A stretch of DNA of 64,000 nucleotides from the NCBI GenBank assembly GCA_036399055.1, contig DASWNX010000030.1:62001-126000 (forward strand). The letters run 5' to 3'. This document shows, in pieces, positions 3,887-34,002 of this stretch. A model generated the notes under the pieces. That model did not search any database and had not been told where the DNA came from. It was given only the letters and a program-made list of their open reading frames with translations. The position numbers and the translations under genes were made by a program. The stretch is from Jatrophihabitans sp. GTDB lineage: Bacteria > Actinomycetota > Actinomycetes > Mycobacteriales > Jatrophihabitantaceae. Every line of letters starts with the position of its first letter. The first letter of the stretch is position 1.

Positions 3887-6800
3887 TCAGCGGAAATCGC
3901 GTGAGGTGGTGCGCATGCCCAGGTGGAGCGGCTCGATCCGTTCGGCCAGCACGTTCAACACGCCGTCGGCCCGCTGCAGCATGCCGCGGATGAGCAGGCC
4001 GCCGGAGGAGACGGCGACCTTGTGATGGCGTTGCCAGACCACCGGGTCGCAGACCACGTTGATCATCCCGAACTCGTCCTCGAGGTTGAGGAAGATCACG
4101 CCGCGGGCGGTGGCCGGCCGTTGCCGATGGGTGACGATGCCGCCGACGACGACCCTGGTCCGGTCCGGGGACCGGCGTAGCTGGTTCGAGGCGATCACGC
4201 CGAGGGAGTCCAGCCGGTCCCTGATCACGGCGGTGGGGTAGCGGTCGCGGGTGATGCCGGTGGCCCACAGGTCAGCCATCAGCTGTTCCGGCTCGGTCAT
4301 CGGCGGCAGCCGCGGAATGCGCTGCTCGCTGGGCGAGGTCAGCTCGAGCTGACCGGGCCGGTAGTCGGCAGCCGCGCCGGCCGCCCAGAGCGCTTGGCGG
4401 CGGCTGATCCCCAGGGACTCGAAGGCGCCGGCGGTGGCCAGCGCCTCGAGCTGGGTGGTGTTGAGCCCGACCCGGCGGGACAGCTCGGTGATGCTGGTGT
4501 AGCCGCCGTGCTCGCGCTCGGCCACGATCCGCCCGGCCAGCTCGTCGCTGATCGCCCGGACGCTGGACAGCCCCAGCCGCACCGCCGGTTGCCCGGGGCC
4601 GGGTCCGGCGTAACCGGACTCACCCGGTTCGGCGTCCTGGAGGCAGGCCGGCGCCAGCGAGGCGTTGATGTCCGGGCCGCGGACGGCGACCCCGTGCCGC
4701 TTGGCGTCGTGCACCAGCGACTGGGGCGAGTAGAAGCCCATCGGCTGGGCGTTGAGCAGCGCCGCGCAGAACGCGGCCGGGTAGTACAGCTTCAGCCAGG
4801 ACGAGGCGTAGACCAGAAAGGCGAAGCTGATCGAGTGGCTTTCGGCGAAGCCGAAGGCGGCGAAGGCCTTCATCTTCTGGTAGATCTCGTCGGCGACCTC
4901 GCCGGTGATGCCGTTGGCCCGCATGCCCTCATAGAGCCGGTCACGCAGCCGCGCCATCTTCTCCTCGCTGCGCTTGGAGCCCATCGCCCGGCGGACCTGG
5001 TCGGCTTCGGCCGGGGTGCAGCCGGCCCCGTCGATCGCCAGCCGCATCAGCTGCTCCTGGAACAGCGGGATTCCCAGGGTGCGCTCCAGCGCCGGCTGCA
5101 GGCGGGGGTGCGGGTAGCTGATCGGCTCCAGGCCGTTCCTGCGGCGCAGGTAGGGATGCACCGAGTCGCCCTGGATCGGGCCCGGCCGGATCAGGGCGAT
5201 CTCGATGACCAGGTCATAGAAGGTGCGGGGCTTGAGCCGGGGCAGCGTCGCCATCTGGGCCCGGGACTCGACCTGGAACACCCCGACGGTGTCGGCGGCG
5301 CACAACATGTCATAGACCCTGGGGTCCTCGGGCGGGATCTCGTGCAGGCCGTACTTGTGGCCGTGATGGCTCTCGACGAACTCGAAGCAGTACTTCAGCG
5401 CCGACAGCATGCCCAGGCCGAGCAGGTCGAACTTCACCAGGCCGGTGGCCGCGCAGTCGTCCTTGTCCCACTGCAGCACGGTCCGGCCTGGCATCCGGCC
5501 CCACTCGACCGGGCACACCTCGATCACCGGGCGATCGCAGATCACCATGCCGCCGGAGTGGATTCCCAGGTGCCGCGGGGCGTTCTGCAGTTGCGCGGCC
5601 AGGGCCAGCACCTGCTCGGGCACCGCCTCACCAGCCCTGTCAGCCGGGCGCTCTGTGCCGGCCGGCTGCCCCGGACGGGCGGGCTGCTCGGGCTGTTCGG
5701 GCTGGGCGCCCGGGTGGTAGCCGCGCTCCATCTGCTTGCTCCAGGCGTCCTGCTGGCCGGGGGCGTAGCCCAGCGCCCGGGCGATGTCGCGGACCGCCGA
5801 GCGCGGCCGGTAGGTGATGACGTTGGCGACCTGGGCGGCGTGCTGGCGGCCGTGCCGGGAGTAGACGTGCTGGATGACCTCCTCGCGCCGGTCGGACTCG
5901 ATGTCGATGTCGATGTCGGGCGGGCCGTCGCGGTCGGGGGCCAGGAAGCGCTCGAACAGCAGGTTGTGCCCGACCGAGTCCACGGCGGTGATGCCGAGGG
6001 CGAAGCAGACCGCGGAGTTGGCGGCAGAGCCGCGTCCCTGGCAGAGGATCTGCCGCTCGGCGCAGAACTGGGTCAGCTCCCAGACCACCAGGAAGTAGCC
6101 GGCGAAGCCGAGCTCGTCGATGACCGCCAGCTCGTGCTCGAGCTGGCGGTAGGCGCGGTCGGTGGCCGGGCTCGGCGGGCCGTACCGGGTGCGGGCGCCG
6201 TCATAGGTCAGCTGCCGCAGGTAGCCCATCTCGTCGGCGACGCCGTCGGGCACCGGGAACGGCGGCAGCTTGGGCGCCACCAGCCGCAGCGGAAAGGCCA
6301 GCTCCGCGCCGAGCCGGGCTGCCGTCGCCACGGCCTGCGGATAGCGCCGGAACCGGGCCGCGACCTCGGCGCCGGACCGCAGGTGCTGGCCTGCCCAGCC
6401 CGGCAGCCAGCCGTCCAGGGCGTCCAGGCTGGTCCGGGCCCGGACCGCGGCCATCGCGGTGGCCAGCGGCCGGTTGGCGGGCGCGGCGTAGTGCGCGGCG
6501 GTGCTGGCGACCAGCGGCAGCCGCTGCTCACCGGCCAGCTCGGCAAGGGCGGCGTAGCGCTCGTCGGCCAGCGGTTCCAGAGCGTGGGTGAGCTCGACGG
6601 CCACGTTGTCGCGGCCGAACCGGTCGACGAGCTCAGCCAGCGCGCGCCTGGCCGGGTCCAGCGCGAACGTGCCGTACTCAAGGCCCTCGGGTGCTCCGCT
6701 GCCTTCCAACGCCTGCCGGACGCTGCCCTTGCGGCAGCCGGTGAGGATCAGCCAGTTGTCGTTCGACAGCTCGGTCAACTCATTGAGGTCATAGACCGGC

Positions 6801-7471
6801 CGGCCCTTGGCGCCGCCGCGCAGGTTGGCCTGGCTGATCGCCCGGCACAGGCTGGCGTAGCCGCTGGGGTTGCGGGCCAGCACCAGCAGGTGGGTGCCAG
6901 GCGGGTCCGGGATGTTGGACCGGGCGGCGACCGAGCGCTCGGTGCGGGTGCGGGGCAGCTCGATCCCGGTGTTGAGCTCGGCCCCGAACACCGTCGGCAG
7001 CCCGTGGGCGTCGGCGGCCTCGGCGAATCGCGCGACGCCGTACATGCCGTCGTGATCGGTCAACGCCAACGCCTGCAGGCCGAGGGCGACCGCCTCCTCG
7101 ACCAGCTGCTCGGGATCGCAGGAGCCGTCCAGAAAGGAGAAGGAGGAGTGCGCGTGCAGCTCGGCGTAGGGAACGGGGTCGGAGCCGGCCAGCGGGATCG
7201 CCGGCGCTTCGTAGGCCGGGCGCTTACGGCTCCAGGCCGGCGAGTCGCCGCCGTCGGGCTCGCGGTCGTCGCCGTGGCCCCTGCGCTGGGACTCGACCGG
7301 CGTTGCGGGGGCGCTGGCTGGCGCAGGCTCCTGACTGGCGCCTGGGCCGCCGTCTGAGCCGCCGTCCTGGCTGGGCTCTGGGCCGCCGTCCTGGCTGGCG
7401 CGAGGCTCGGGTCGTCCGGACAGCCGCCGTTCCAGCTCGTGCCACGGCACCACCGGATTGTTAAAGCCCAT
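3887..7471 (-). CDS. dnaE2: Error-prone DNA polymerase III alpha subunit DnaE2 (ImuC)
   Basis: Catalytic polymerase of the SOS mutasome; with ImuA' and ImuB it copies past damaged bases and causes induced mutation. The protein is 1194 aa, longer than the roughly 1050-1100 usual for the family. The excess is an N-terminal Gln/Asp/Gly/Pro-rich extension (residues about 20-80, with repeated SQDGG) and a Pro/Gln-rich insert near residue 600. The PHP domain begins at PYAELHAHSSFSFLDGS (101). The palm has the catalytic acidic motif PDIDIDIESD near 518 and QWDKDDCAATGLVKFD further on; helix-hairpin-helix and OB-fold regions follow. There is no Shine-Dalgarno; a -10 element ends 7 nt before the ATG, suggesting a leaderless mRNA, and a LexA box lies just upstream. 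Confidence 0.95.
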   Translation of the reverse strand: MGFNNPVVPWHELERRLSGRPEPRASQDGGPEPSQDGGSDGGPGASQEPAPASAPATPVESQRRGHGDDREPDGGDSPAWSRKRPAYEAPAIPLAGSDPVPYAELHAHSSFSFLDGSCDPEQLVEEAVALGLQALALTDHDGMYGVARFAEAADAHGLPTVFGAELNTGIELPRTRTERSVAARSNIPDPPGTHLLVLARNPSGYASLCRAISQANLRGGAKGRPVYDLNELTELSNDNWLILTGCRKGSVRQALEGSGAPEGLEYGTFALDPARRALAELVDRFGRDNVAVELTHALEPLADERYAALAELAGEQRLPLVASTAAHYAAPANRPLATAMAAVRARTSLDALDGWLPGWAGQHLRSGAEVAARFRRYPQAVATAARLGAELAFPLRLVAPKLPPFPVPDGVADEMGYLRQLTYDGARTRYGPPSPATDRAYRQLEHELAVIDELGFAGYFLVVWELTQFCAERQILCQGRGSAANSAVCFALGITAVDSVGHNLLFERFLAPDRDGPPDIDIDIESDRREEVIQHVYSRHGRQHAAQVANVITYRPRSAVRDIARALGYAPGQQDAWSKQMERGYHPGAQPEQPEQPARPGQPAGTERPADRAGEAVPEQVLALAAQLQNAPRHLGIHSGGMVICDRPVIEVCPVEWGRMPGRTVLQWDKDDCAATGLVKFDLLGLGMLSALKYCFEFVESHHGHKYGLHEIPPEDPRVYDMLCAADTVGVFQVESRAQMATLPRLKPRTFYDLVIEIALIRPGPIQGDSVHPYLRRRNGLEPISYPHPRLQPALERTLGIPLFQEQLMRLAIDGAGCTPAEADQVRRAMGSKRSEEKMARLRDRLYEGMRANGITGEVADEIYQKMKAFAAFGFAESHSISFAFLVYASSWLKLYYPAAFCAALLNAQPMGFYSPQSLVHDAKRHGVAVRGPDINASLAPACLQDAEPGESGYAGPGPGQPAVRLGLSSVRAISDELAGRIVAEREHGGYTSITELSRRVGLNTTQLEALATAGAFESLGISRRQALWAAGAAADYRPGQLELTSPSEQRIPRLPPMTEPEQLMADLWATGITRDRYPTAVIRDRLDSLGVIASNQLRRSPDRTRVVVGGIVTHRQRPATARGVIFLNLEDEFGMINVVCDPVVWQRHHKVAVSSGGLLIRGMLQRADGVLNVLAERIEPLHLGMRTTSRDFR

Positions 7472-7477
7472 AGACGG

Positions 7478-7483
7478 AGTGTA
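7478..7483 (-). promoter_or_regulatory. -10 element of dnaE2 (TACACT)
   Basis: On the minus strand TACACT is followed by 6 nt and the dnaE2 ATG, the leaderless layout repeated elsewhere in this window. No convincing -35 hexamer is visible. Confidence 0.6.
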
Positions 7484-7500
7484 CTGAACGTATGTTCGAA
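7484..7500 (-). promoter_or_regulatory. LexA (SOS) box of dnaE2
   Basis: The minus strand reads TTCGAACATACGTTCAG, matching the actinobacterial/Bacillus-type LexA consensus CGAACNNNNGTTCG with one end mismatch. It abuts the -10 element, so bound LexA would block the promoter. dnaE2 is a known LexA target in mycobacteria. Confidence 0.85.
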
Positions 7501-22996: not shown

Positions 22997-24568
22997 CTAG
23001 TCATAGAGCGCCTCCAGCAGCCACTGCTGGGCGGCGAGGTCAAAGCACACCAGGTAGGCGCGCCCGCTGACGTCGACCAGTTGCATCCGGGCCAGCTGCC
23101 GGGCCGACTCGGGGTCCCACCAGCGCTCGTCCACCGGCCACGGCCCGGCCCAGGCGGTGATCGGCGCGCCCGGCGCTGTGCGGTCTGCGGGATCGGCGCA
23201 CTCGGCGGTCCCGACGTAGAGAGCCGGCGCGGCCGGGACGGCCCCGCGGTCGGTGACCAGCACCGTCCGGCCGGCCTCGTCGAGCACCCGGACCGGCTGC
23301 GGAGGGTCGATGATCACCGACGGCGCCGGAGACGGCAGCCGGCCCGGCCACGGCCCGGACGAGGCCTGCTCGCGATCATCACCCCACGGCACCAGCCGAG
23401 TGCGCTGCGCCGGCCCACGGCCACCGCCGAGCACCGGGGTCAGCACCGAGCCGTGGCCCAGCAGGGTCTGCACCCTGGCCAGCGCCCGGTGGACGCGCTC
23501 GTCCGCCGCCCCGTCACCACCCCAGAGGGCATGCTGGTTGGCGCCGGTGGGAACCGTCTCGACCGGGGTCAGCCGCAGCAGGCTCACCGGCCCGGACGGC
23601 GCGTTGAGCTCGCCGGCGGCCCGGTTCAGCCAGCCCTCCAGCTGCCAGCGGACCCGGTCGGTCACGTCGACGGCGGTGAGCACCCCGGCATGGCGCCAGC
23701 GACGCACCGTCTCCTCGCCCCGGTCGGTCTGGGCCACCAGCTCGAAGCAGGTGCAGGCCAGGCCGTGCTCGGACAGCTCCGAGACGAACCGCTCGATCGC
23801 GCCGCGGGCGCTGAAGGCGATGGTGTCGACCCGGTCCAGCGGCGGTTCGAGGTCGATGCTGACCTCGAACTCCGTGGGCGGCAGCCGGCCGGCGATCGGC
23901 CGGCTGTCCAGACCGGCTGCCTGCCGGTGCGCCCACGCTCCCGCCGGGCCGAACCGGGCCTGGGCGTCGGCGGCGGGCAGCGCGGCGAAGGCGCCCAGGG
24001 TGCGGATGCCCAGCCGGGTCAGCAGGTCGACCAGGCCCGGCTCCTCCAGGGTGCTGATCGGCAGCTCGGCCAGGAACCGGGCTGAGCCGCCCGGTGGGAT
24101 GAGAACGCCGCGGCGGGCGGCCTGCTCGGCGGCGAAGGCCCCGTCCGCGACTCCGATCAGCACGTTCTCGGTGTGCTCGGCGATGGCGCGCGCCAGGGCG
24201 TGCAGGACGCCCGCCTCACCGCCGAAGTACCGGGTGGGGCCGCGGACCCCGATCATGGCCAGCCCCGGGCGTCCGAGCTCCACCCCGAGCGCCACCGACT
24301 CGATCGCGGTCAGCACGGGCTCAAAGGCACGGGCCTCCGCGGCCAGGTTGCGCGGCAGGATCACCAGTTCGGGGCAGCGCGCCTGGGCCTCCCGCCGGCG
24401 CAGGCCGCGCTTGACGCCGTGCTCGCGCGCGGCCTGGGAGCAGGCGATGACCCGGTTGGCGGTGAGCACCGCGACCGGTTCGGCCTCGGACAGGCCGGCC
24501 CCGGCCCGGGCGACGGTGACCGGCCAGTCCGGGCACCAGACCGCGGCCATCCGGGGTGGGGCGGTCAT
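22997..24568 (-). CDS. imuB: ImuB, catalytically inactive Y-family polymerase-like mutasome hub
   Basis: 523 aa. Y-family polymerase fold in which the metal-binding acidic residues are missing: the first motif, DxDxFFASVE in active DinB enzymes, reads AAVWCPDWPVTVA, and the second (SIDE in DinB) is replaced by GVRGPTRYFGG. Known ImuB proteins are non-catalytic adapters that bring ImuA', DnaE2 and the beta clamp together. A helix-hairpin-helix region is seen in LVDLLTRLGIRTLGAFAALP and a little-finger region follows; the C-terminal 150 residues are the interaction part. A canonical clamp motif is not obvious to me. It follows imuA' with a 19-nt gap in the same SOS operon. Confidence 0.93.
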   Translation of the reverse strand: MTAPPRMAAVWCPDWPVTVARAGAGLSEAEPVAVLTANRVIACSQAAREHGVKRGLRRREAQARCPELVILPRNLAAEARAFEPVLTAIESVALGVELGRPGLAMIGVRGPTRYFGGEAGVLHALARAIAEHTENVLIGVADGAFAAEQAARRGVLIPPGGSARFLAELPISTLEEPGLVDLLTRLGIRTLGAFAALPAADAQARFGPAGAWAHRQAAGLDSRPIAGRLPPTEFEVSIDLEPPLDRVDTIAFSARGAIERFVSELSEHGLACTCFELVAQTDRGEETVRRWRHAGVLTAVDVTDRVRWQLEGWLNRAAGELNAPSGPVSLLRLTPVETVPTGANQHALWGGDGAADERVHRALARVQTLLGHGSVLTPVLGGGRGPAQRTRLVPWGDDREQASSGPWPGRLPSPAPSVIIDPPQPVRVLDEAGRTVLVTDRGAVPAAPALYVGTAECADPADRTAPGAPITAWAGPWPVDERWWDPESARQLARMQLVDVSGRAYLVCFDLAAQQWLLEALYD

Positions 24569-24587: not shown

Positions 24588-25523
24588 TCATAGCCACAAG
24601 TCGGCGCCGCGGGGCCGGGCCGAGCGCCCGCGGCCGATCGCCGCCACCCGCAGCTGGCGCTGCCGGAGCCGGCCGTACCCCCGGTCGATTCCGACCCAGC
24701 GACCGTGGGTGGCCGACAGCTCGATCTCCACGGCAGGCCAGGACGCGGCCTGCTGGCCGAACAGCACCAGGATGGCGCCCTTGCTGCGAGCCCGTGCGGT
24801 CAGCCGGCGCGCCTCGCCATCGGTGATCCCGCCGTTGCGTCCGAACGCCCCGGGATCACCACCGTCCCGGTCGGCGGGGACACCGCCGGCGCCGCCCGGC
24901 CGGGCGACCACCACGTCCACGGCGTCGAGCAGGGCGCCGACCGCGGTGGTCCAGGACGACCCGGTCCAGCCCGGCTCCCAATTGCCATTCGGTCCGGTCC
25001 TCGCTCCTGCGTCGCTGCGATCCTCCCTCATCGGGGGGCTGATGATCGCCAGCCGTTCCAGCTCCATGCCGGCCTCGTCGGCGGCCTCCGCGCTGATCGC
25101 CGGCATGCCCACCATCGCCGTCCAGGCGCCGGCGGCCGAGGCCGGGCCCAGCAGGGCGAGCAGCAAGGACACCGACGAGGTGACCGCCACGGTGCTGCCC
25201 CGGCGCAGCCCGTCCGGCAGCAACTGCCTCAGCCCGGGTGGCACCGGAAGCGGCGGCAGCGTCGGAGTGGTGAGGGGGTTGAGGGCGCCGGCCTGCTGCG
25301 AAGCCAACTCCGCCCGCAGCTCGGCTCGCTGCTCGGCGCGCAGCACCGGGCGCCGCAGCGGGAGCGCTGCCGGGTGGCTGAACGGATCTGGCTCGGCTAC
25401 CGCGTAGGCGCCGTCGCTGTCGTCGAAGCGAGCGGCTTCGAGGTCGTGGTCGGGGTCGGGACAGAGGTCGTGATCGGAGGCGAACTCCGCTTCCGGAAGG
25501 TCCTGGAAGCCGGCGGCGGTCAC
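24588..25523 (-). CDS. imuA': ImuA' (RecA-like accessory protein of the SOS mutasome)
   Basis: 311 aa from GTG 25523. The conserved core LRQLLPDGLRRGSTVAVTSSVSLLLALLGPASAAGAW matches the ImuA'/RecA-like family; the P-loop is degenerate (TSSVSLL instead of GxxGxGKT). The N-terminal 70 residues are acidic and variable. The open frame extends to 25691, but that extension would be read through the LexA box and the core promoter. With TTGACA at 25553-25558 and AGCATA at 25529-25534, transcription should start at or next to this GTG, giving a leaderless mRNA. First gene of the imuA'-imuB operon. Confidence 0.88.
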   Translation of the reverse strand: MTAAGFQDLPEAEFASDHDLCPDPDHDLEAARFDDSDGAYAVAEPDPFSHPAALPLRRPVLRAEQRAELRAELASQQAGALNPLTTPTLPPLPVPPGLRQLLPDGLRRGSTVAVTSSVSLLLALLGPASAAGAWTAMVGMPAISAEAADEAGMELERLAIISPPMREDRSDAGARTGPNGNWEPGWTGSSWTTAVGALLDAVDVVVARPGGAGGVPADRDGGDPGAFGRNGGITDGEARRLTARARSKGAILVLFGQQAASWPAVEIELSATHGRWVGIDRGYGRLRQRQLRVAAIGRGRSARPRGADLWL

Positions 25524-25528
25524 GTTCC

Positions 25529-25558
25529 TATGCTCGAACAATTGTTCGATTATGTCAA
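25529..25558 (-). promoter_or_regulatory. Core promoter of imuA'-imuB
   Basis: Minus strand: -35 TTGACA (25558-25553), 18-nt spacer, -10 AGCATA (25534-25529), then 5 nt to the GTG at 25523. The LexA box fills the spacer. Confidence 0.75.
25534..25549. promoter_or_regulatory. LexA (SOS) box of imuA'-imuB, perfect palindrome
   Basis: TCGAACAATTGTTCGA is a perfect 16-bp palindrome identical to the optimal actinobacterial LexA site pattern. It lies between -35 and -10, so repressor binding would exclude RNA polymerase. Confidence 0.93.
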
Positions 25559-25683
25559 TGTAGATCATGCAGTCACGGCCGCCGACGCGGCAGTCACCAG
25601 GGCAGTGTCGCGCTGGAGGCTCGACCGCCGGCGCGGCCTGAGTTCCGCCGCAACGCGCGACCCACCGCCGGGCACAATGAGCT

Positions 25684-26055
25684 GTGACCACCTGCCCGTG
25701 CGGTTCCGGCGAGCCTTACGAGTCCTGCTGTGGCAGGTATCACCTAGGTGAGGCGCAGCCGCCGACCGCGGTCACCCTGATGCGCGCCAGGTACACCGCC
25801 TTCGCCCGAGGCGAGGAGGAGTTCCTCGCCTCGACCTGGCATCCCTCCACCCTGCCCCGCGGCCCGCTCGTCGATCCCTCGCTCAGCTGGGTGGGCCTGC
25901 ACGTCACGGCTCAGACCGGCGGCGGGCTGCTCGACGCCACCGCCACGGTGCGCTTCACCGCGCGCTACCTCCGGGCAGGCGTGCCGGGCAGGTTGACCGA
26001 GACCAGCCGGTTCACGCGTCTGCGCGGGCGCTGGACCTATCTCGGCCCCACCTGA
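25684..26055 (+). CDS. YchJ-like SEC-C/UPF0225 protein
   Basis: 123 aa. The N-terminal CPCGSGEPYESCCGRYH is the SEC-C zinc-binding motif (C-x-C...CC/H), followed by the conserved TAVTLMRARYTAFARGEEEFLASTWHPST of the YchJ/UPF0225 family with its NTF2-like fold. Function in the cell is unknown; these are small cytosolic proteins. GTG start with CACAAT 5 nt upstream. Monocistronic, converging on the GtrA gene. Confidence 0.87.
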   Translation: MTTCPCGSGEPYESCCGRYHLGEAQPPTAVTLMRARYTAFARGEEEFLASTWHPSTLPRGPLVDPSLSWVGLHVTAQTGGGLLDATATVRFTARYLRAGVPGRLTETSRFTRLRGRWTYLGPT

Positions 26056-26693: not shown

Positions 26694-27401
26694 TCAGCAG
26701 CTGAGCCGGACGGCGCCTTGCACCACCTGACGGACAAGCTGAGGGCTGCCCTGCCAGCCGGACGGCTGGAAATCCTCCAGGACGGTGCTCAGCGCGAACT
26801 GCGCGCTCAGCTCGTGCCACACCTGGGCCCGGCGCAGCATCGCGTGCCCCTCTCCGTACACCGTCACCAGGCTCACCGCGGCGCCGGCGGCCTCGATCCG
26901 GCCGGCGTAGACCTCCGTGCCGGCGGGTGAGGTCATCCGGTCGGCGCTGCCGTGCATCAGCAGCACCCGGCGGCCGGCGAGTTGGCTGACCGGCTCGTGG
27001 GCCGGCAGCCAGGGCGCCAAGGCGACCACCCCCCGCACCTGTGGGTGACCGCCGATCCGCAGGGCGGTCCGGCCGCCCATCGAGTGCCCCACCACGCTGA
27101 TCGGCAGGCCGGCAAAGCGCTCGGTCAGCTGCCGCAGCGCCCATTCGGCGTCGTTGACCGGCGCCGGGCTGCCCGTGGCGGCGTTCCAGCCACGGCTGGC
27201 GTAGCGCAGCCGGGCGACCGCCACCCGCCCGGCGCCGCGGCGGGCGATCCGGCGGGCGAACGGGACCATCCGCAGCACCGCCACCTGGTGAGCCCGCACC
27301 GGGTCGGTGCTCAACTCCCGCCCGCCGTGCAGCACCAGCACCACAGCCTCGCTGCGACGCCGGCCGGTCTCCACCGACAGGCGCGGGGTGGCGGTGATCA
27401 T
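26694..27401 (-). CDS. Alpha/beta hydrolase (dienelactone hydrolase-like)
   Basis: 235 aa. Small serine hydrolase: oxyanion strand AVVLVLHGGREL, nucleophile elbow VVGHSMGGRTAL, Asp in LLMHGSADRMTSPAG and His in YGEGHAML, the full triad. No signal peptide, so cytosolic; substrate unknown. Codon GTG at 27410 is in frame three codons earlier, but TACGGT at 27409-27414 sits 7 nt upstream of ATG 27401, which I take as the start. Divergent from purK across 96 nt. Confidence 0.85.
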   Translation of the reverse strand: MITATPRLSVETGRRRSEAVVLVLHGGRELSTDPVRAHQVAVLRMVPFARRIARRGAGRVAVARLRYASRGWNAATGSPAPVNDAEWALRQLTERFAGLPISVVGHSMGGRTALRIGGHPQVRGVVALAPWLPAHEPVSQLAGRRVLLMHGSADRMTSPAGTEVYAGRIEAAGAAVSLVTVYGEGHAMLRRAQVWHELSAQFALSTVLEDFQPSGWQGSPQLVRQVVQGAVRLSC

Positions 27402-27483
27402 GGCTGCCACCGTACCCAGGCGGCGCCCGACGCAGCCTGCGACCCAGGGCGCCGCGCTGGTCAGCGGCCGCCGGCACAGGCGC

Positions 27484-27497: not shown

Positions 27498-28685
27498 GTG
27501 GATAGCCGAACCGGACTGCCGGTCGTGGGCATGGTGGGCGCGGGTCAGCTGGCCAGGATGACCCACCAGGCCGCCATCGCCCTGGGGCAGTCGCTGCGGC
27601 TGCTGGCCGACTCCGCCGACGACGGCGCGGCCATGGTGGCCGGTGACGTGCAGGTCGGGGACTACCGGTCGCTGGCGGACCTGCGCCGCTTCGCCGCCGG
27701 CTGCGACGTGCTGACCTTTGACCACGAGCACGTGCCGGGCGAGCACCTAGAGGCGTTGGCCGCCGAAGGGGTGCTGGTGCTGCCCTCGGCGCCGGCGTTG
27801 AGATTCGCCCAGAACAAGGCTGAGATGCGCCGCAAGATGGCGGAGCTGGGAGTGGCCGGGCCGGCCTGGCGGGACCTGTCGACCGAGGCCGATCCACGGC
27901 AGGCGCTGGTGGACTTCACCGACCGGGTCGGCTGGCCGGTGGTGGTCAAGGCGATCTCGGGCGGATATGACGGCAAGGGCGTCTGGATCCTGGACTCGAT
28001 AGCCGACGCCGAGCCGCTGCTGGCGGCGGGCACCGCGCTGCTGGCGGAGGCCAAGGTGGACCTGGACTTCGAGATCGCGGCGGTGGTGGCCCGCTCGCCG
28101 TTCGGCCAGGGCGCGGCCTGGACTCCTGTGGAGACGGTCCAGCAGGACGGGATCTGCACCGAGGTGATCGCCCCCGCGCCCCGGCTGAGCGACGAGCAGG
28201 CCGAGACGGCCCAGCAGCTGGCGCTGCGGATCGCCGCTGAGCTCGACGTCGTCGGGGTGCTGGCGGTGGAGATGTTCATCGAGCGCGGCGGCGCGCTGCT
28301 GGTCAACGAGCTGGCGATGCGGCCGCACAACTCAGGGCACTGGACGATCGAGGGCTCGCGTACCTCGCAGTTCGAGCAGCACCTGCGCGCGGTGCTCGAC
28401 TACCCGCTGGGGGCGACTGCCCAGACCGCGCCGGTGGTCGTGATGGCCAACGTGCTCGGCGGCCCGGACGACACCGAGCCGGCGCTGGACGAGCGGGTGC
28501 ACCACCTGATGGCCAAGTGGCCCGACGTCAAGATCCACCTGTATGGAAAAGGGTTTCGTCCTGGCCGCAAGGTCGGCCACGTCACTGCGCTGGGCGATGA
28601 CCTGCGGCTGGTCCGCGAGCGGGCCCGGGCGGCGGCGGACTACCTGTCCCTGGGGGAGCGAGCGAAGGTGGATGCCCATGACTAG
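27498..28685 (+). CDS. purK: 5-(carboxyamino)imidazole ribonucleotide synthase PurK
   Basis: 395 aa. ATP-grasp enzyme converting AIR and bicarbonate to N5-CAIR in purine synthesis. [18 protein letters not shown] opens the N-terminal nucleotide-binding domain; [14 protein letters not shown] is the ATP-grasp glycine loop; [31 protein letters not shown] carries the metal- and substrate-binding residues. The frame is open far upstream but GTG 27498 gives the normal family length. The stop overlaps the start region of purE, so the two successive enzymes are coupled. Confidence 0.96.
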
Positions 28686-29253
28686 CCAGCCTCAGCAGCC
28701 TGACCAGCCTCAGCAGCCTGACCAGCCTGACCAGTCAGCGGCCGGCCGGCCGGCCGAGGTCGGGGTGATCATGGGCAGCGACTCGGACTTCGCGGTGATG
28801 GCGGCGGCCGGTGAGGCGCTCACCGAGTTCGGGGTGCCGTTCGAGGTCCGGGTGGTGTCGGCGCACCGGACGCCTGAGGCGATGCTCGACTACGCCCGGT
28901 CAGCGGCCGGCCGCGGCCTGCGGGTCATCATCGCCGGGGCCGGCGGCGCCGCGCACCTGCCCGGCATGGTGGCCTCGCTGACGCCGTTGCCGGTGATCGG
29001 GGTGCCGGTGCCGCTGAAGTACCTGGACGGCCTGGACTCGCTGCTGTCGATCGTCCAGATGCCGGCCGGGGTGCCGGTGGCCACTGTGTCGATCGGAGGC
29101 GCTCGCAACGCCGGCCTGCTGGCCGTCCGGATGCTGGGGGCTTCCGACGAGCGGTTACGGGTCCGGATCGAGGCTTTTCAAGCGGAGCTGGCCGAGACCG
29201 CCGTCAATAAGGACCGAGCACTGGCCGAGCAGGTACGTACGCTCGGTTGGTGA
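28678..29253 (+). CDS. purE: N5-CAIR mutase PurE
   Basis: 191 aa; converts N5-CAIR to CAIR. The core starts at [14 protein letters not shown] and contains [14 protein letters not shown] (catalytic His) and [27 protein letters not shown]. The first 25 residues are a Gln/Pro/Asp-rich extension with a repeated [16 protein letters not shown] pattern, unusual for the family. ATG 28678 has GAAGG at a 9-nt spacing; ATG 28672 is also possible. It overlaps the purK stop (tag at 28683-28685) and its own stop overlaps the next start by GTGA. Confidence 0.95.
28684..28737 (+). repeat. Short tandem repeat at the 5' end of purE
   Basis: CAGCCTCAGCAGCCTGAC recurs twice, then a shortened CAGCCTGAC follows, giving the Gln/Pro/Asp-rich N-terminus of PurE. 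Confidence 0.75.
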
Positions 29254-32033
29254 GCACTGCGCGGGCCGCGACGGCGATGCATCGTCGACGGCGGTCCTCC
29301 ATCCGGTGGTGGCAGGTCCGGCGATGGCTGGCGCCCCGGCGCGCCAAGCAGGTCGCCGCCGCGGTGCTCGCGGCGCTGCTGGCGATCGCGGCGCTGACGG
29401 TGCTCAACCGCGAGCCGGCCCTGCGGGTGTCCGAGCAGTCGATCCCCGGCACCCCCGAGCCCGGCGGCGGCGCCGTGCTGCTGGACAGCTCGCTCTACCT
29501 GCCCGAGCGGACGCCGGCTCCGGCGATCCTGCTGGCGCACGGCTTCGGCGGGTCGAAGGCAGGGTTGGACGGCCAGGCGCGCACGCTGGCGCGGGCCGGT
29601 TATGTGGTCCTGACCTACACCGCACGGGGGTTCGGCGCCTCCGGTGGCTTGATCCACCTGGACTCGCGGCGGTACGAGGTGGCCGACGGCTCCCGGCTGC
29701 TCGACTTCCTGCAGGCCCGTCCCGAGGTCGCGCGAGCAGGTGAGCGGCCGGTGCTGGGGGTGGCAGGCTCGTCCTATGGCGGCGCGCTGGCCCTGATGCT
29801 CGGGGCGACCGATCAGCGGATCGCAGCGGTGGCGGCTGACATCACCTGGAACAACCTGGCCCGGGCGCTGTTTCCCAATGCGGCGGCCACCGGCGCCGAC
29901 CAGCGGGTGGGGGTGTTCAAGAGGCTCTGGGCCGGCTACCTGTTCTCCAGCGGCTTCAACGCTGCCTCGGCCGGCGGCTCCGGCTCGAACGGCGCCGCGC
30001 CCGGTGGGGCCCCGCCCGGTGGCGCCGCGCCCGGCGGGGCCGCGCCCGGTGGGACTGCGTCCGGCGGGGTTGCGCCCGGCGGCGGCTCCGTCAGTTGCGG
30101 CAGGTTCGCCGCCGAGCTCTGCGCCAGCTACCAGCGGGCGGTCGCCGGCGGCCCGCCGGACGTGCGGTTGGCCAGCCTGCTCGCCGAGTCCAGTCCCGCG
30201 GGAGTGCTCGACGGGATGCGGGCGCCGACCTTGCTGACCCAGGGCGACCAGGACTCGCTGTTCCCGCTCAGCGAGGCCGATGCCAACGCTCGGCAGATCG
30301 CGGCGGCCGGCGCCCAGGTGCAGGTCCGGTGGCGAGCCGGCGGCCATGACGCATCAGGCGCAAACGACGACGTCAGCGGCATCCAGCGGCGGTTCTTCGA
30401 TCAGAAGTTGCGCGGCAGGGCCGGTTCCAGCGCGGAGTTCCTGCTTTCCCAACCAGGCGCGGGCATCTCGGCCAGCAGCGGCCGGACGGTCGCTGCCACC
30501 CTGCGTGCCTCCGGTTACCCGGGACTGCCCGGGCGTCCCGGGTTCACCAGCCGCCAGGTCACGCTGAATGGCCAGCCGCGCCAGATCAGCGCGCCGGCCG
30601 GTGGCTCACCGGCGGCGGTGTCGACCGTTCCGGGCCTGGGCGACCTGATCGGCGGCGCGGCCGGCCTGGGGCTCGGTGGCGCCGCCGGACTGTCCCGGCT
30701 GCCCGGCCAGAGCGCGGTGTTCAGCTCAGACCCGCTTGTCGAGCCGGCGCTGGTGATCGGCTCGTCCGAGGTCAGGCTGAGGGTGACGGCCGGCAGGACC
30801 GGTGAGGCCACCCTGTTCGTGTCGTTGCACGACCTCGGCCCGGACGGCTCGGACACCCTGCCGGCCCGGTTGGTGTCACCGGTCCGGTTGACCGGCAGGC
30901 CGGGACAGGTGCAGCTGGTCACCGTCCGGCTGCCGTGGATCGTCGCCGAGGTGCCGGCCGGGCATCGGCTCGCGGTCGAGGTGTCGACCACCGACTTCGC
31001 TTATCAGTTGCCCACCGAGCCCGCGACCTACACGGTCGCGCTCGGCGAGACCCTGGCCGCCCCGGGCGCCACGCTCAGCGTCGCGTCGCTGCCGGTCATC
31101 GAAGTGCGCACCGGCGGAGCCCGCGCCTGGGTGATCGCCGCGGCGCTGGTCGTGCTGCTGTGCCTGGCCTACGGCTGGTGGCGGCTGCGCTCGCGCCGGC
31201 CGCACGACGCCGATCCGGCTCTGGCGCAGGTGCCGATCGTGGTGTCTGACCTGGCGAAGGTCTACGCCGACGGTTACCGCGCGGTGGACGGGGTCAGCTT
31301 CCGGGTCGAGCGTGGTCAGGTGCTGGGCTTGCTGGGCCCCAACGGCGCCGGCAAGACCACCACGCTGCGGGTGCTGATGGGCCTGATCCTGCCCACCGCG
31401 GGCTCTATCCGGGTGTTCGGCCACGAGGTGGTGCCCGGAGCGCGGGTGCTGTCCAGGCTGGGCGCCTTCGTCGAGGGCCCGGGTTTCCTGCCCCACCTGA
31501 GCGGCCGGGAGAACCTGCGGTTGTTCTGGGCCGCGTCCGGCCGGACGGTCAAGCAGGCGCAGTTCGAGACCGTGCTCGAGATCGCCGGGCTCGGGGATTC
31601 GCTGGAGCGCAGGGTGAAGACCTACAGCCACGGCATGCAGCAGCGGCTGGCGATCGCCCAGGCGATGCTGGGCCTGCCTGAGGTGCTGGTGCTGGACGAG
31701 CCGACCAACGGCCTGGACCCGCCGCAGATCGCCGAGATGCGGGTGGTGCTGGGCCGGTACGCGGCGACCGGGCGCACCGTCATCGTCTCCTCGCACCTGC
31801 TGGCCGAGGTGGAGCAGACCTGCACCCATGTGGTGGTGATGCACCGGGGCCGGCTGGTGGCGGCCGGCTCGGTCGCCGAGGTGGCGGGGTCCGGGTCTAC
31901 CCAGTTGGCTGTCGATGACGTCGACCGCGCTCGTGAGGTGCTGACAGCGGCCGGGGTCCCGGCCCGGGTGGTGCCGGCCCGGCGCGCCCTGGAAGACGTC
32001 TTCCTGGACTTGATAGGTGAGCGTGTTGACTAG
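29250..32033 (+). CDS. Membrane-anchored CocE/X-Pro-peptidase-like hydrolase fused to an ABC transporter ATPase
   Basis: 927 aa. Residues 1-34 are basic, 35-52 a transmembrane helix, then an alpha/beta hydrolase with nucleophile Ser in AGSSYGGAL, Asp in [12 protein letters not shown] and His in RAGGHDAS, followed by a beta-rich PepX_C/CocE-type domain. A second helix (about 623-645, [19 protein letters not shown]) leads to a complete ABC ATPase: Walker [11 protein letters not shown] near 696, signature [13 protein letters not shown], Walker [16 protein letters not shown]-loop SSHLLAEVE. Predicted topology: hydrolase outside, ATPase inside. Six 15-nt repeats encode a Gly/Ala/Pro insert at 250-279. 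GTG start overlaps the purE stop by GTGA. The ABC-2 permease gene overlaps its 3' end. Substrate is unknown. Confidence 0.85.
29997..30086 (+). repeat. 15-nt in-frame tandem repeat, six copies, in the hydrolase-ABC gene
   Basis: Degenerate unit GCGCCCGGTGGGGCC repeated six times, encoding APGGA-type pentapeptides at residues 250-279, inside the hydrolase domain between the nucleophile and the acid residue, probably in a surface loop or cap. Confidence 0.88.
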
Positions 32034-33030
32034 CGATCCGACCGGAGCCGGCGCGGCTGCCGGCGCTGCCCCACCCGTTGGCGCGAGCTCTGCCGCGAGC
32101 CCTGCCGACACACCCGCCGGAACGCCGGCGACCAGGCGCGGCGCGCACTTCCGGCTCGCGCACCTGCCCCCGCTGTCGGCTGAGCAGGGCCGGAGCCAGC
32201 CCCCGTTCGACACCGGGCGCACCATGCCGCTGCGGATCGAATTCGCCCGTCAGCTCACCCGCCGGCGCACCCAGCTGGTCGGGCTGCTGCTGCTGGTGCT
32301 GCCGATCATCATGGCGCTGGCCTTTCAGATCGGCGGGCCCAGCAGTCCCGACCGTGACCGCCCGGCCCTGGTCGACCTGGCCACCGCCGGAGCGGGCAAC
32401 TTCGCGTTCTTCACCGAGTTCGCCTCGGTCGGCTTTCTGCTCGTGGTCATCGTGGCCATGTTCTGCGGCGACACCGTCGCCAGCGAGGCGAGCTGGTCCT
32501 CGCTGCGTTACCTGCTGGCGATGCCGATCCCGCGGGCCCGGCTGCTGCGCCAGAAACTGGTGGTGGCGCTGACATTCTCGTTCGGGGTCAACCTGTTGCT
32601 GCCGGCCTGGGCTTACGTGGTGGGCGGGGTGTTCTTCGGCTGGGACCCGGCGCGCTCGCCGTTCGGAGGCAGCTTCACCCATGCCGAGACCCTGCAGCGA
32701 ATGCTGATCGTCGCGCTGTACGCCGCCGGTCAGGCGCTGGTGGTGGCAGGCCTGGCCTTCCTGCTGAGCGTGCTGACCGACGCGCCGCTGGCCGCGGTCG
32801 GCGGCGCGACGTTCCTGGTGGTGGTGTCCAACATCCTGGACTCGATCACCGCGCTGGACCCGTACCGGGTGGTGCTGCCGACCCACTTCCAGTACTCGTG
32901 GCTGGACGCGCTCACCCCGGCGATCAGCTGGGACGACATGATCCGCGGCTGCGCGCTGGCAGTCATCTACAGCGCCGTGTTCTTCACCCTCGCCTGGACC
33001 CGCTTCGCCCGCAAGGACATCACCAGCTGA
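32017..33030 (+). CDS. ABC-2 type transporter permease
   Basis: 337 aa. After a Pro/Ala-rich cytosolic N-terminus of about 70 residues come six hydrophobic spans in ABC-2 order: LVGLLLLVLPIIMALAF, FASVGFLLVVIVAMF, LVVALTFSFGVNLLLPAWAYVVGG, MLIVALYAAGQALVVAGLAFLL, AAVGGATFLVVVSNI, LAVIYSAVFFTLAW. SLRYLLAMPIPRARLLRQK is the loop typical of Nat/Bcr-type permeases. It overlaps the ATPase fusion gene by 17 nt, so the two form one exporter. GTG 32017 is likely; GTG 32023 is possible. Confidence 0.87.
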   Translation: MSVLTSDPTGAGAAAGAAPPVGASSAASPADTPAGTPATRRGAHFRLAHLPPLSAEQGRSQPPFDTGRTMPLRIEFARQLTRRRTQLVGLLLLVLPIIMALAFQIGGPSSPDRDRPALVDLATAGAGNFAFFTEFASVGFLLVVIVAMFCGDTVASEASWSSLRYLLAMPIPRARLLRQKLVVALTFSFGVNLLLPAWAYVVGGVFFGWDPARSPFGGSFTHAETLQRMLIVALYAAGQALVVAGLAFLLSVLTDAPLAAVGGATFLVVVSNILDSITALDPYRVVLPTHFQYSWLDALTPAISWDDMIRGCALAVIYSAVFFTLAWTRFARKDITS

Positions 33031-33130: not shown

Positions 33131-33463
33131 CTACGACGCGCCGGCGATTCCGAGGAACACGACGATGGCGCGATTGACTCGCACCAGGTCAGCGTCGTCC
33201 AGAACACCAATCTTGCTGCCCAGTCTGCGCCGATGAACTGTGGTGATCTTGTCGACCATGAGGCGGCTCGCAACGTCCAGGCCGTTGGCGGTCGACGGCG
33301 CGATCTCCAACCGGAACAGCGGAGCCTCGGTGGCGTCGGAGGTGAACAGGCATACGGTCGCTGAATCGGTGTCGAAGTGATCGTCCTGGAGGATGAGGGC
33401 CGGCCGCGGTTTGCTGGCGTAATCACCGCCACCCGCCACGGTCCAGATCTCGCCCCGCCTCAA
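33131..33463 (-). CDS. mazF: MazF/PemK-type toxin (mRNA endoribonuclease)
   Basis: 110 aa. MRRGEIWTVAGGGDYASKPRPALILQDD is the conserved PemK/MazF start with the active-site Arg region, and TVCLFTSD plus LMVDKITTVHRRRLG complete the fold. Known family members cleave mRNA at short sequences to arrest growth. The ATG overlaps the antitoxin stop by ATGA, the standard coupled order of antitoxin then toxin. The converging neighbour is the ABC permease gene, 100 nt away. Confidence 0.92.
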   Translation of the reverse strand: MRRGEIWTVAGGGDYASKPRPALILQDDHFDTDSATVCLFTSDATEAPLFRLEIAPSTANGLDVASRLMVDKITTVHRRRLGSKIGVLDDADLVRVNRAIVVFLGIAGAS

Positions 33464-33672
33464 TCCTCAGGCCATTCCGATACCGAGTCGACGAAGGCTT
33501 GATCCCTTTCTGCCTCGTGACTCCTCGCGACAGCGCGAGACTGGCGGCGCGCCTCCTCGGCGAAACCGGGGGCATTGACGTCAGGAACCCAGATCTGCAC
33601 CGGACGCAGGCCCTGGGAGCGCAATCGAGCACGATAGGCCCTTACCCGGGCGCGAGTCGACGTGCTGGCCAT
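33460..33672 (-). CDS. mazE: MazE-family antitoxin
   Basis: 70 aa. RVRAYRARLRSQGLRPVQIWVPDVNAPGFAEEARRQS is the MazE-family (DUF3018-type) N-terminus that binds DNA, and the acidic C-terminus (AFVDSVSEWPED) would wrap the toxin. The longer frame to 33708 is set aside because ATG 33672 has GGAGG at 8 nt. A perfect palindrome 16 nt upstream is the probable autoregulation site. Confidence 0.88.
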   Translation of the reverse strand: MASTSTRARVRAYRARLRSQGLRPVQIWVPDVNAPGFAEEARRQSRAVARSHEAERDQAFVDSVSEWPED

Positions 33673-33687
33673 AGGGCACCTCCGATT

Positions 33688-33701
33688 CGTTACATGTAAC
33701 G
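33688..33701. promoter_or_regulatory. Probable MazE operator (14-bp perfect palindrome)
   Basis: CGTTACATGTAACG lies 16 nt before the antitoxin start. Its position and symmetry fit autorepression by the MazEF complex; binding is inferred. Confidence 0.6.
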
Positions 33702-34002
33702 ATAGCACTCATCCGCCATGAAGCCCCTCGTCGTGATGCCGTTCAGGTGCGCCGGAGTTCAGCGTCAAGCCGCTGCTTTGAGCTCTGCCGTTTCAAGCTA
33801 CGACTGTGTTTGGCCACGGCCTCAGAATCCCACTGAACTGCCTCAGCAAGTTGAAGAAGGATGGATCAGCAACTAGCCAGGTTCCGAGGTCGTTGCACCG
33901 CCGTGCTGCCAGGCGTTCAGACCGCGACGGCAACCGGTTGGTCATCCGCACGCACCCCGGTGCAGCCAAACCCGCGCGCCCAACGCGGCATGTCCGGTCG
34001 AA
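33702..34002. other. Intergenic stretch without a recognised gene
   Basis: About 300 nt upstream of mazEF. Short open frames exist on both strands but have no recognisable domain or coding pattern. It should contain the mazEF -35 region. Confidence 0.5.

Follow-up and report, generated by a model that had tools for sequence, protein, structure and literature searches.

ATP-binding cassette (ABC) exporters of the ABC-2 kind, represented by DrrAB, NosFY and the ABCA proteins and also classed as type V exporters, operate as assemblies of two ATPases and two permease halves. Their ATPases are either soluble or fused to the permease halves, and the large outer domains of the ABCA proteins are not known to be hydrolases. 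A hydrolytic enzyme and an ABC ATPase do share one chain in PCAT, but there the enzyme is a C39 cysteine peptidase that sits on the cytosolic side and acts before export. The immunity pumps LanFEG and BcrAB carry, to our knowledge, no fused hydrolase. In FtsEX, transporter and enzymes are separate proteins, the permease is of the FtsX type and the enzymes are peptidoglycan hydrolases; the likeness to the locus described here lies in a cytosolic ATPase that is linked to an outer hydrolase; a paper on RipC is PMC10694151. Here we analysed a gene of Jatrophihabitans sp. (contig DASWNX010000030.1, our contig 30 of genome G000; genome size 4.5 Mb) in which a serine hydrolase, predicted to lie outside the cell, is fused to a complete ABC ATPase and followed by the gene of an ABC-2 permease. 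Coordinates are those of the window, by which we mean the whole stretch of 64,000 nucleotides that was analysed.

One uninterrupted reading frame contains, in this order, a membrane helix, a CocE/PepX-type serine hydrolase, a PepX_C domain, a second helix and the complete ABC ATPase (Table 1). The longest version of the frame begins at TTG 29247, but GTG 29250 was judged to be the likelier start. Counted from the TTG, the matches to Peptidase_S15 (residues 77-213, 2.3e-13), Abhydrolase_1 (92-350, 1.5e-12), PepX_C (487-602, 2.4e-13) and ABC_tran (681-821, 9.1e-31) all exceed the curated Pfam cut-offs; the positions of helices and catalytic residues are counted from the GTG. Because long frames are cheap at a guanine-cytosine content of 73-74%, and because antisense frames of 389 and 449 amino acids overlap the gene, the length of the frame alone proves nothing. 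Within the same genome, the single other non-ATPase match to the fusion was a 616-amino-acid frame on contig 4 that lacks the ATPase part, and these two genes are the only ones in which PepX_C was detected. The fusion itself is single-copy in this genome.

The fusion was found again in relatives. We read 51 neighbourhood loci, picked from the matches for spread and therefore not a random sample, and a second set of 40 regions. Hydrolase and ATPase share one frame in 50 of the 51 loci, the exception (L134) being a stand-alone enzyme with a signal-peptide-like start. The second set added 16 fusions and 23 stand-alone enzymes, and one region gave no match; a further fusion with its permease was read at L181 (genome G607). 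In all 65 distinct fusion loci read, which belong to Actinomycetota, the same fusion is adjoined by a permease match on the same strand, and the permease stop lies 797-1057 nucleotides past the fusion stop in 50 of 50 loci. Since the same architecture occurs in 65 distinct loci, a chance frame or an assembly error can be excluded. The Pfam hydrolase domains (S15/Abhydrolase_1) and PepX_C were likewise detected in the members of the family that were scanned, the hydrolase in 12 of 12.

For residue-level comparisons, 49 fusions were aligned; L041, which lies on the same contig as L096, was dropped, as was L095, which is the window itself and was replaced by our own reading of it. The linker between the second helix and the ATPase, the stretch that was examined for internal starts, is about 22 residues long in most of the members displayed and long in L136. 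It contains no ATG, GTG or TTG in 15 of the 49 fusions, and a start codon with a Shine-Dalgarno-like tetramer in 8. The original prediction had placed a CocE/X-Pro-peptidase-like domain between two helices and a full ABC ATPase in one chain, with an overlapping permease gene, and had proposed a search for the domain pair across Actinobacteria. The 65 loci bear out this layout, and a split by sequencing error or internal start, on which it might have failed, does not hold as a general explanation; one relative, described below, is an exception.

Both enzyme halves keep their active sites. Ser175, Asp335 and His366, which we take to form the catalytic triad on the basis of motifs and not of a structure, are present in 49/49 fusions. 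Also intact in all 49 are Walker A, the Asp-Glu of Walker B and the Ser-Ser-His of the H-loop, as in the ABC superfamily, and the ABC signature reads S-(Q/H)-G-M-x-Q-R, with Gln at the second position in 31 fusions and His in 18. As both sites are invariant although the hydrolase parts are down to 28% identical, we read the protein as two working enzymes and not as an ATPase with a hydrolase kept merely for binding; judged from this conservation, both activities look to be under selection.

The hydrolase belongs to the Pfam families S15 (50.9 vs 23 bits) and PepX_C (50.9 vs 22.5 bits). It shares this domain pair and the presumed triad with CocE/NonD hydrolases and X-Pro dipeptidyl peptidases, but is ATPase-fused and predicted to be membrane-anchored, and stays below the cut-off of the CocE/NonD model TIGR00976 (57.4 vs 66.3 bits). 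The Xaa-Pro dipeptidyl-peptidase model NF003780 was not reached either (12.8 vs 642 bits). The solved structures nearest by sequence are the entries 8yzo and 8yzn, named 'Lipase', and 9pjb, named 'MHETase MHT043-5'. The earlier label 'X-Pro-peptidase-like' is thus apt for the fold, while the activity could equally be that of an esterase or a lipase.

The curated models that fit the fused ATPase best are DrrA and lantibiotic protection, and the GldA model is also close. Its scores lie under the cut-offs of the DrrA daunorubicin-resistance model (181.3 vs 312.45 bits) and of the LanF-type lantibiotic-protection model TIGR03740 (173.4 vs 309.75 bits), so that it resembles the ATPases of LanFEG-like immunity pumps without reaching their threshold. 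The nearest PDB entries by sequence are ABCA3, ABCA4 and NosF, so that models and structures alike place the ATPase nearest to those of exporters. As in DrrAB and NosFY, there is a separate ABC-2 permease, but the ATPase itself bears two predicted helices and a presumed outer enzyme. The permease gene overlaps the end of the fusion gene by 17 nucleotides, and its product matches ABC2_membrane_2 (2.8e-12; PF12679, 46.9 bits vs a cut-off of 27.2), as expected of an ABC-2-type partner. In the permeases of 50 loci, four to seven helices were called (six in the window), and a search by sequence returned no credible solved structure for the permease.

The hydrolase is predicted to lie outside and the ATPase inside the cell. 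A hydropathy scan of the aligned fusions called the N-terminal helix in 47 of 49, with a higher net charge inside than outside in 46 of these 47, and the helix between PepX_C and the ATPase in 49 of 49, with more charge on its C-terminal than on its N-terminal side in 43. Cys283 and Cys291, both present in 47 of the 49 fusions, are presumed to pair, as would be expected of a disulfide outside the cell. In addition, what looks by eye like a signal peptide precedes the domain in 20 of 23 stand-alone relatives; in L142, L143 and L153 the start could not be seen in the stretch inspected. Taken together, the predicted helices, their flanking charges, the cysteines and the starts of stand-alone relatives speak, at the level of prediction, against a cytosolic position of both domains, which the original prediction had named as an outcome that would undo it.

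The two-gene unit looks old and widespread in Actinobacteria. The hydrolase half was matched at 1e-20 in 49 of 61 relatives (44 with a frame of at least 849 amino acids) and at 1e-30 in 115 of 150 genomes of the window's order (112 with a frame of at least 847 amino acids; the exceptions are G031, G545 and G565). At 1e-15 it was matched in 66 of 197 genomes of the class and 56 of 296 of the phylum, tallies that include stand-alone enzymes. A long frame is by itself no proof of fusion, as the ATPase is absent from the long frames of G085, G359 and G502; its presence was checked in the fetched loci. G367 and G388, each a genome of one contig and 1.3-1.4 Mb, also contain fusion and permease, which, with the frequency in the order, suggests a job worth keeping. 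A scan of contigs yielded 28 loci, of which 17 were fusions or fusion fragments, all titled Actinobacteria, and 11 matched in the ATPase only. Two of the 17 (L045, L046) come from assemblies titled Bifidobacterium breve and are about 45% identical; here we suspect mislabelled bins. Among the order genomes displayed, three of family f7 match and 12 do not, and 15 further misses lie outside those displayed. Four genomes of this family (loci L142, L143, L144, L153) hold long stand-alone relatives of the hydrolase, with frames of 744-913 amino acids and no ATPase or permease match within the fetched stretch of roughly 6 kb.

A quick tree compared the hydrolase part of 65 fusions with 22 stand-alone relatives; one branch separates the fusions from the rest. 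In the ATPase tree the fused ATPases stand apart from four other ATPases of the window genome with a support of 96, three of these four being long branches. Pairwise identities calculated for each of the three parts correlate with one another at 0.83-0.85, a value taken without a species baseline. These trees fit one old fusion event. A split ancestor was sought, but no same-strand permease match was found near 25 stand-alone relatives (the 23, L134 and L180) in fetched flanks of mostly 5.5-9 kb. Weak ATPase matches occur near three of them: on the same strand, 3 kb upstream, at L156, and on the opposite strand at L152 and, at a distance of about 3 kb, at L134.

Table 1. Features of the fusion locus in window coordinates; positions of helices and catalytic residues are counted from GTG 29250
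Feature	Position	Strand	Basis or remark
purE (AIR carboxylase), upstream neighbour outside the conserved unit	28672..29253	+	PF00731; start codon chosen by us
Hydrolase-ABC ATPase fusion gene	29250..32033	+	Uninterrupted frame, 927 amino acids from GTG 29250
Predicted membrane helix at the N terminus (residues 34-52), with an Arg-rich stretch before it	29349..29405	+	Hydropathy scan
Alpha/beta hydrolase (CocE/Peptidase_S15-like) catalytic domain, predicted extracellular	29427..30449 (ends approximate)	+	Pfam S15/Abhydrolase_1
Presumed catalytic Ser175 (G-S-S-Y-G-G)	29772..29774	+	Ser in 49/49 aligned fusions
Gly/Ala/Pro-rich insert in the hydrolase domain, window copy	29971..30084	+	Repeat of 15-bp period in the DNA
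Cys283 and Cys291, conserved pair, presumed disulfide	30096..30122	+	Both Cys in 47/49 fusions
Presumed catalytic Asp335	30252..30254	+	Asp in 49/49 aligned fusions
Presumed catalytic His366	30345..30347	+	His in 49/49 aligned fusions
PepX_C domain	30705..31052	+	PF08530
Predicted second membrane helix, residues 626-644, between outer domain and ATPase	31125..31181	+	Hydropathy scan
ABC ATPase domain with Walker A, signature YSHGMQQR, Walker B LDEP and H-loop SSH	31233..32030	+	PF00005, 9.1e-31
ABC-2 permease gene, six helices called	32017..33030	+	PF12679/PF12730; overlaps the end of the fusion gene

We consider it a little better than an even bet that the unit is a two-gene ABC-2 (type V-like) exporter of Actinomycetota whose ATPase subunits carry an outer hydrolase that cuts the molecule being moved. 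Each fusion chain would start in the cytosol, cross the membrane once, place its CocE/PepX-type serine hydrolase on the outer face, cross back and end in the ATPase that drives the permease. By analogy with the family, two such chains and two permeases would form a 2:2 complex; as ABC-2 exporters have two ATPases and two permease halves, two outer hydrolases would be expected beside the exit of the permease. Through the ATP cycle, an amphiphilic compound resembling an ester, a peptide or a lipid would be carried or lifted out of the cell or the membrane onto the outer face and cut there at once by the tethered enzyme, which is the simplest use of the layout. Fusion, conserved active sites and constant permease gene can be read directly in the sequences; the topology is predicted, and we infer the 2:2 assembly, the direction of export and the identity of the cut with the transported molecule. 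The original proposal that processing of a substrate outside the cell would be coupled to ATP-driven export is supported in part.

Several points weigh against such an exporter. Export is argued from the type of ATPase and permease, so that its direction rests on family resemblance, and the hydrolase could act alone, with the fusion serving merely as an anchor. No neighbouring gene around the 51 loci points to a substrate; the recurring groups look like housekeeping or kinship. The topology has exceptions as well: the first helix was not called in 2 of the 49 fusions (L116, L122), an additional hydrophobic stretch was called in the outer part of 6 and in the ATPase of 3, and the full cysteine pair is missing in 2 (L130, L132). 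The branch that separates the fusions in the hydrolase tree has a support of 90 in the Shimodaira-Hasegawa-like approximate likelihood-ratio test, below the 95 mark of the tool. Finally, in the one-contig genome G545 (L179, 4467-7489 on the minus strand) hydrolase and ATPase are split after the second helix into two overlapping frames, 5390-7489 for the hydrolase with the second helix and 4467-5564 for the ATPase, and the permease is still next. This was the only split fusion seen among the relatives read; it may mean that a single chain is not strictly needed, or it may be a sequencing error.

The most serious rival, which we nevertheless regard as unlikely, is that ATPase and permease carry no substrate at all but signal conformationally across the membrane to switch the outer hydrolase on and off. 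FtsEX gates cell-wall hydrolases by such a signal. The invariance of both active sites would suit this mode of action, and so would the attachment of the hydrolase to the ATPase through a single helix and a mostly short linker, which favours mechanical coupling. However, the permease is of the ABC-2 type, no FtsX- or MacB-type Pfam match was reported for it, and the enzyme matches CocE, PepX and esterase- or lipase-like families and no peptidoglycan hydrolase. Somewhat less probable still is a role in self-protection, a special case of the exporter in which the unit would pull harmful amphiphiles, such as antimicrobial peptides or lipopeptides, out of the membrane and destroy them. LanFEG and BcrAB are the models for such pumps, here with a degrading enzyme built in. 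That the two curated models closest to the ATPase are those for daunorubicin resistance and lantibiotic protection speaks for this role, but the scores fall far under the cut-offs of both, and the broad presence, very small genomes included, looks more like housekeeping than like a cluster-specific immunity gene. The latter argument is qualified by four genomes (G337, G362, G445 and G576) that have two long-frame matches each.

The fusion might also be a mere tether by which an independent surface enzyme is anchored on a transporter, the two being functionally uncoupled. Stand-alone relatives whose fetched flanks lack these ABC genes would fit a tether, as would the retention of gene order and permease by the split relative G545. 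Yet fusion and permease occur together in every distinct locus read, across genomes of the same order, class and phylum, and plain anchors should be gained and lost more readily; we consider uncoupled anchoring improbable. Long frames are common at high GC and one relative is split, which could be taken as signs of an artefact, that is, a chance frame, a sequencing error or two proteins made through an internal start. As a general explanation this is refuted by the same order in one frame at 65 distinct loci and by the fusions whose examined linker contains no start codon, and we give it next to no chance.

Beyond the permease, the surroundings of the fusion vary. Clustering of the genes around the 51 loci picked up the fusion at 47 of them and the permease at 30, as the gene-picking step missed others that were found by direct matching. 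The permease is the only constant neighbour, and the next gene groups reach at most 9 of the 51 loci. These smaller groups are mostly shared among kin. Family f1, for instance, shares purK (accompanied by purE in 6) and a gene resembling UDP-glucose dehydrogenase; an aldehyde-dehydrogenase-like gene occurs mostly in one genus, and a transporter-like group is scattered. Groups of seven (threonine synthase by eye), six and four (GroEL by eye) turn up repeatedly next to the fusion across several families of the order. In L104, L105, L107, L108, L109, L113 and L114 the same gene, the one read by eye as threonine synthase, is found 4-7 kb away from the fusion, and GroEL-like genes follow further on in four loci.

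Start-stop coupling of the fusion gene to purE had been part of the original prediction. In the window the purE stop TGA (29251-29253) is indeed overlapped by the fusion start as GTGA, and in the eight loci of the window's family an NTGA overlap was found in four, TAGTG in one and other spacing in two, while purE lies 3.8 kb off in the last. No purE match was found in the fetched flanks of 42 other loci (including the stand-alone L134; the named loci are assumed to lie outside family f1). Because the linkage is confined to the window's family among the loci read, we rejected the coupling as a hint at function.

Around residues 240-280 of the fusion the query match is interrupted in many relatives, and the window copy carries the repetitive insert listed in Table 1. 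Immediately after the permease gene come two genes on the minus strand, a PemK/MazF-like toxin gene (33131-33463) and an overlapping MazE-like antitoxin gene (33460-33708). Further away in the window is an impB/mucB/samB (Y-family polymerase-like) gene (22997-24568, minus strand), with a frame of 367 amino acids just upstream (24588-25691) that has no Pfam match; we take the pair to be reminiscent of a mutasome cassette. A small second alpha/beta hydrolase gene (26694-27410, minus strand) lies beside purK, on the opposite strand.

In Tsukamurella tyrosinosolvens the fusion protein (WP_232066410.1) is annotated as 'alpha/beta fold hydrolase' and the next gene as 'ABC transporter permease'; as this is the sole member seen with a database name, the ATPase half is hidden from those who read names. 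We found no description of a hydrolase-ABC ATPase fusion in the open-licence literature. A word search of PMC4522959 gave no match, and the two passages matched in PMC11878206 and the five in PMC3482391 had no bearing on it. As far as these searches go, the unit is a conserved and apparently unstudied domain layout within a known superfamily rather than a new kind of protein. This agrees with the original statement that no characterised system of this kind was known, although the fusion proteins themselves are common in genomes.

With a confidence somewhat short of even, we propose that an outer hydrolase and the ATP-driven motor of a transporter are combined in one polypeptide, that a single helix couples ATP consumption inside mechanically to bond cleavage outside, be it by extruding and cutting or by ATP-gated cutting, and that this is an old, widespread and uncharacterised actinobacterial machine. 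If the coupling is true, the ATPase subunit of this ABC transporter would itself hold the processing enzyme, on the opposite side of the membrane, and we know of no characterised system built in this way. Its interest lies in the retention of both enzyme sites in one membrane-spanning chain.

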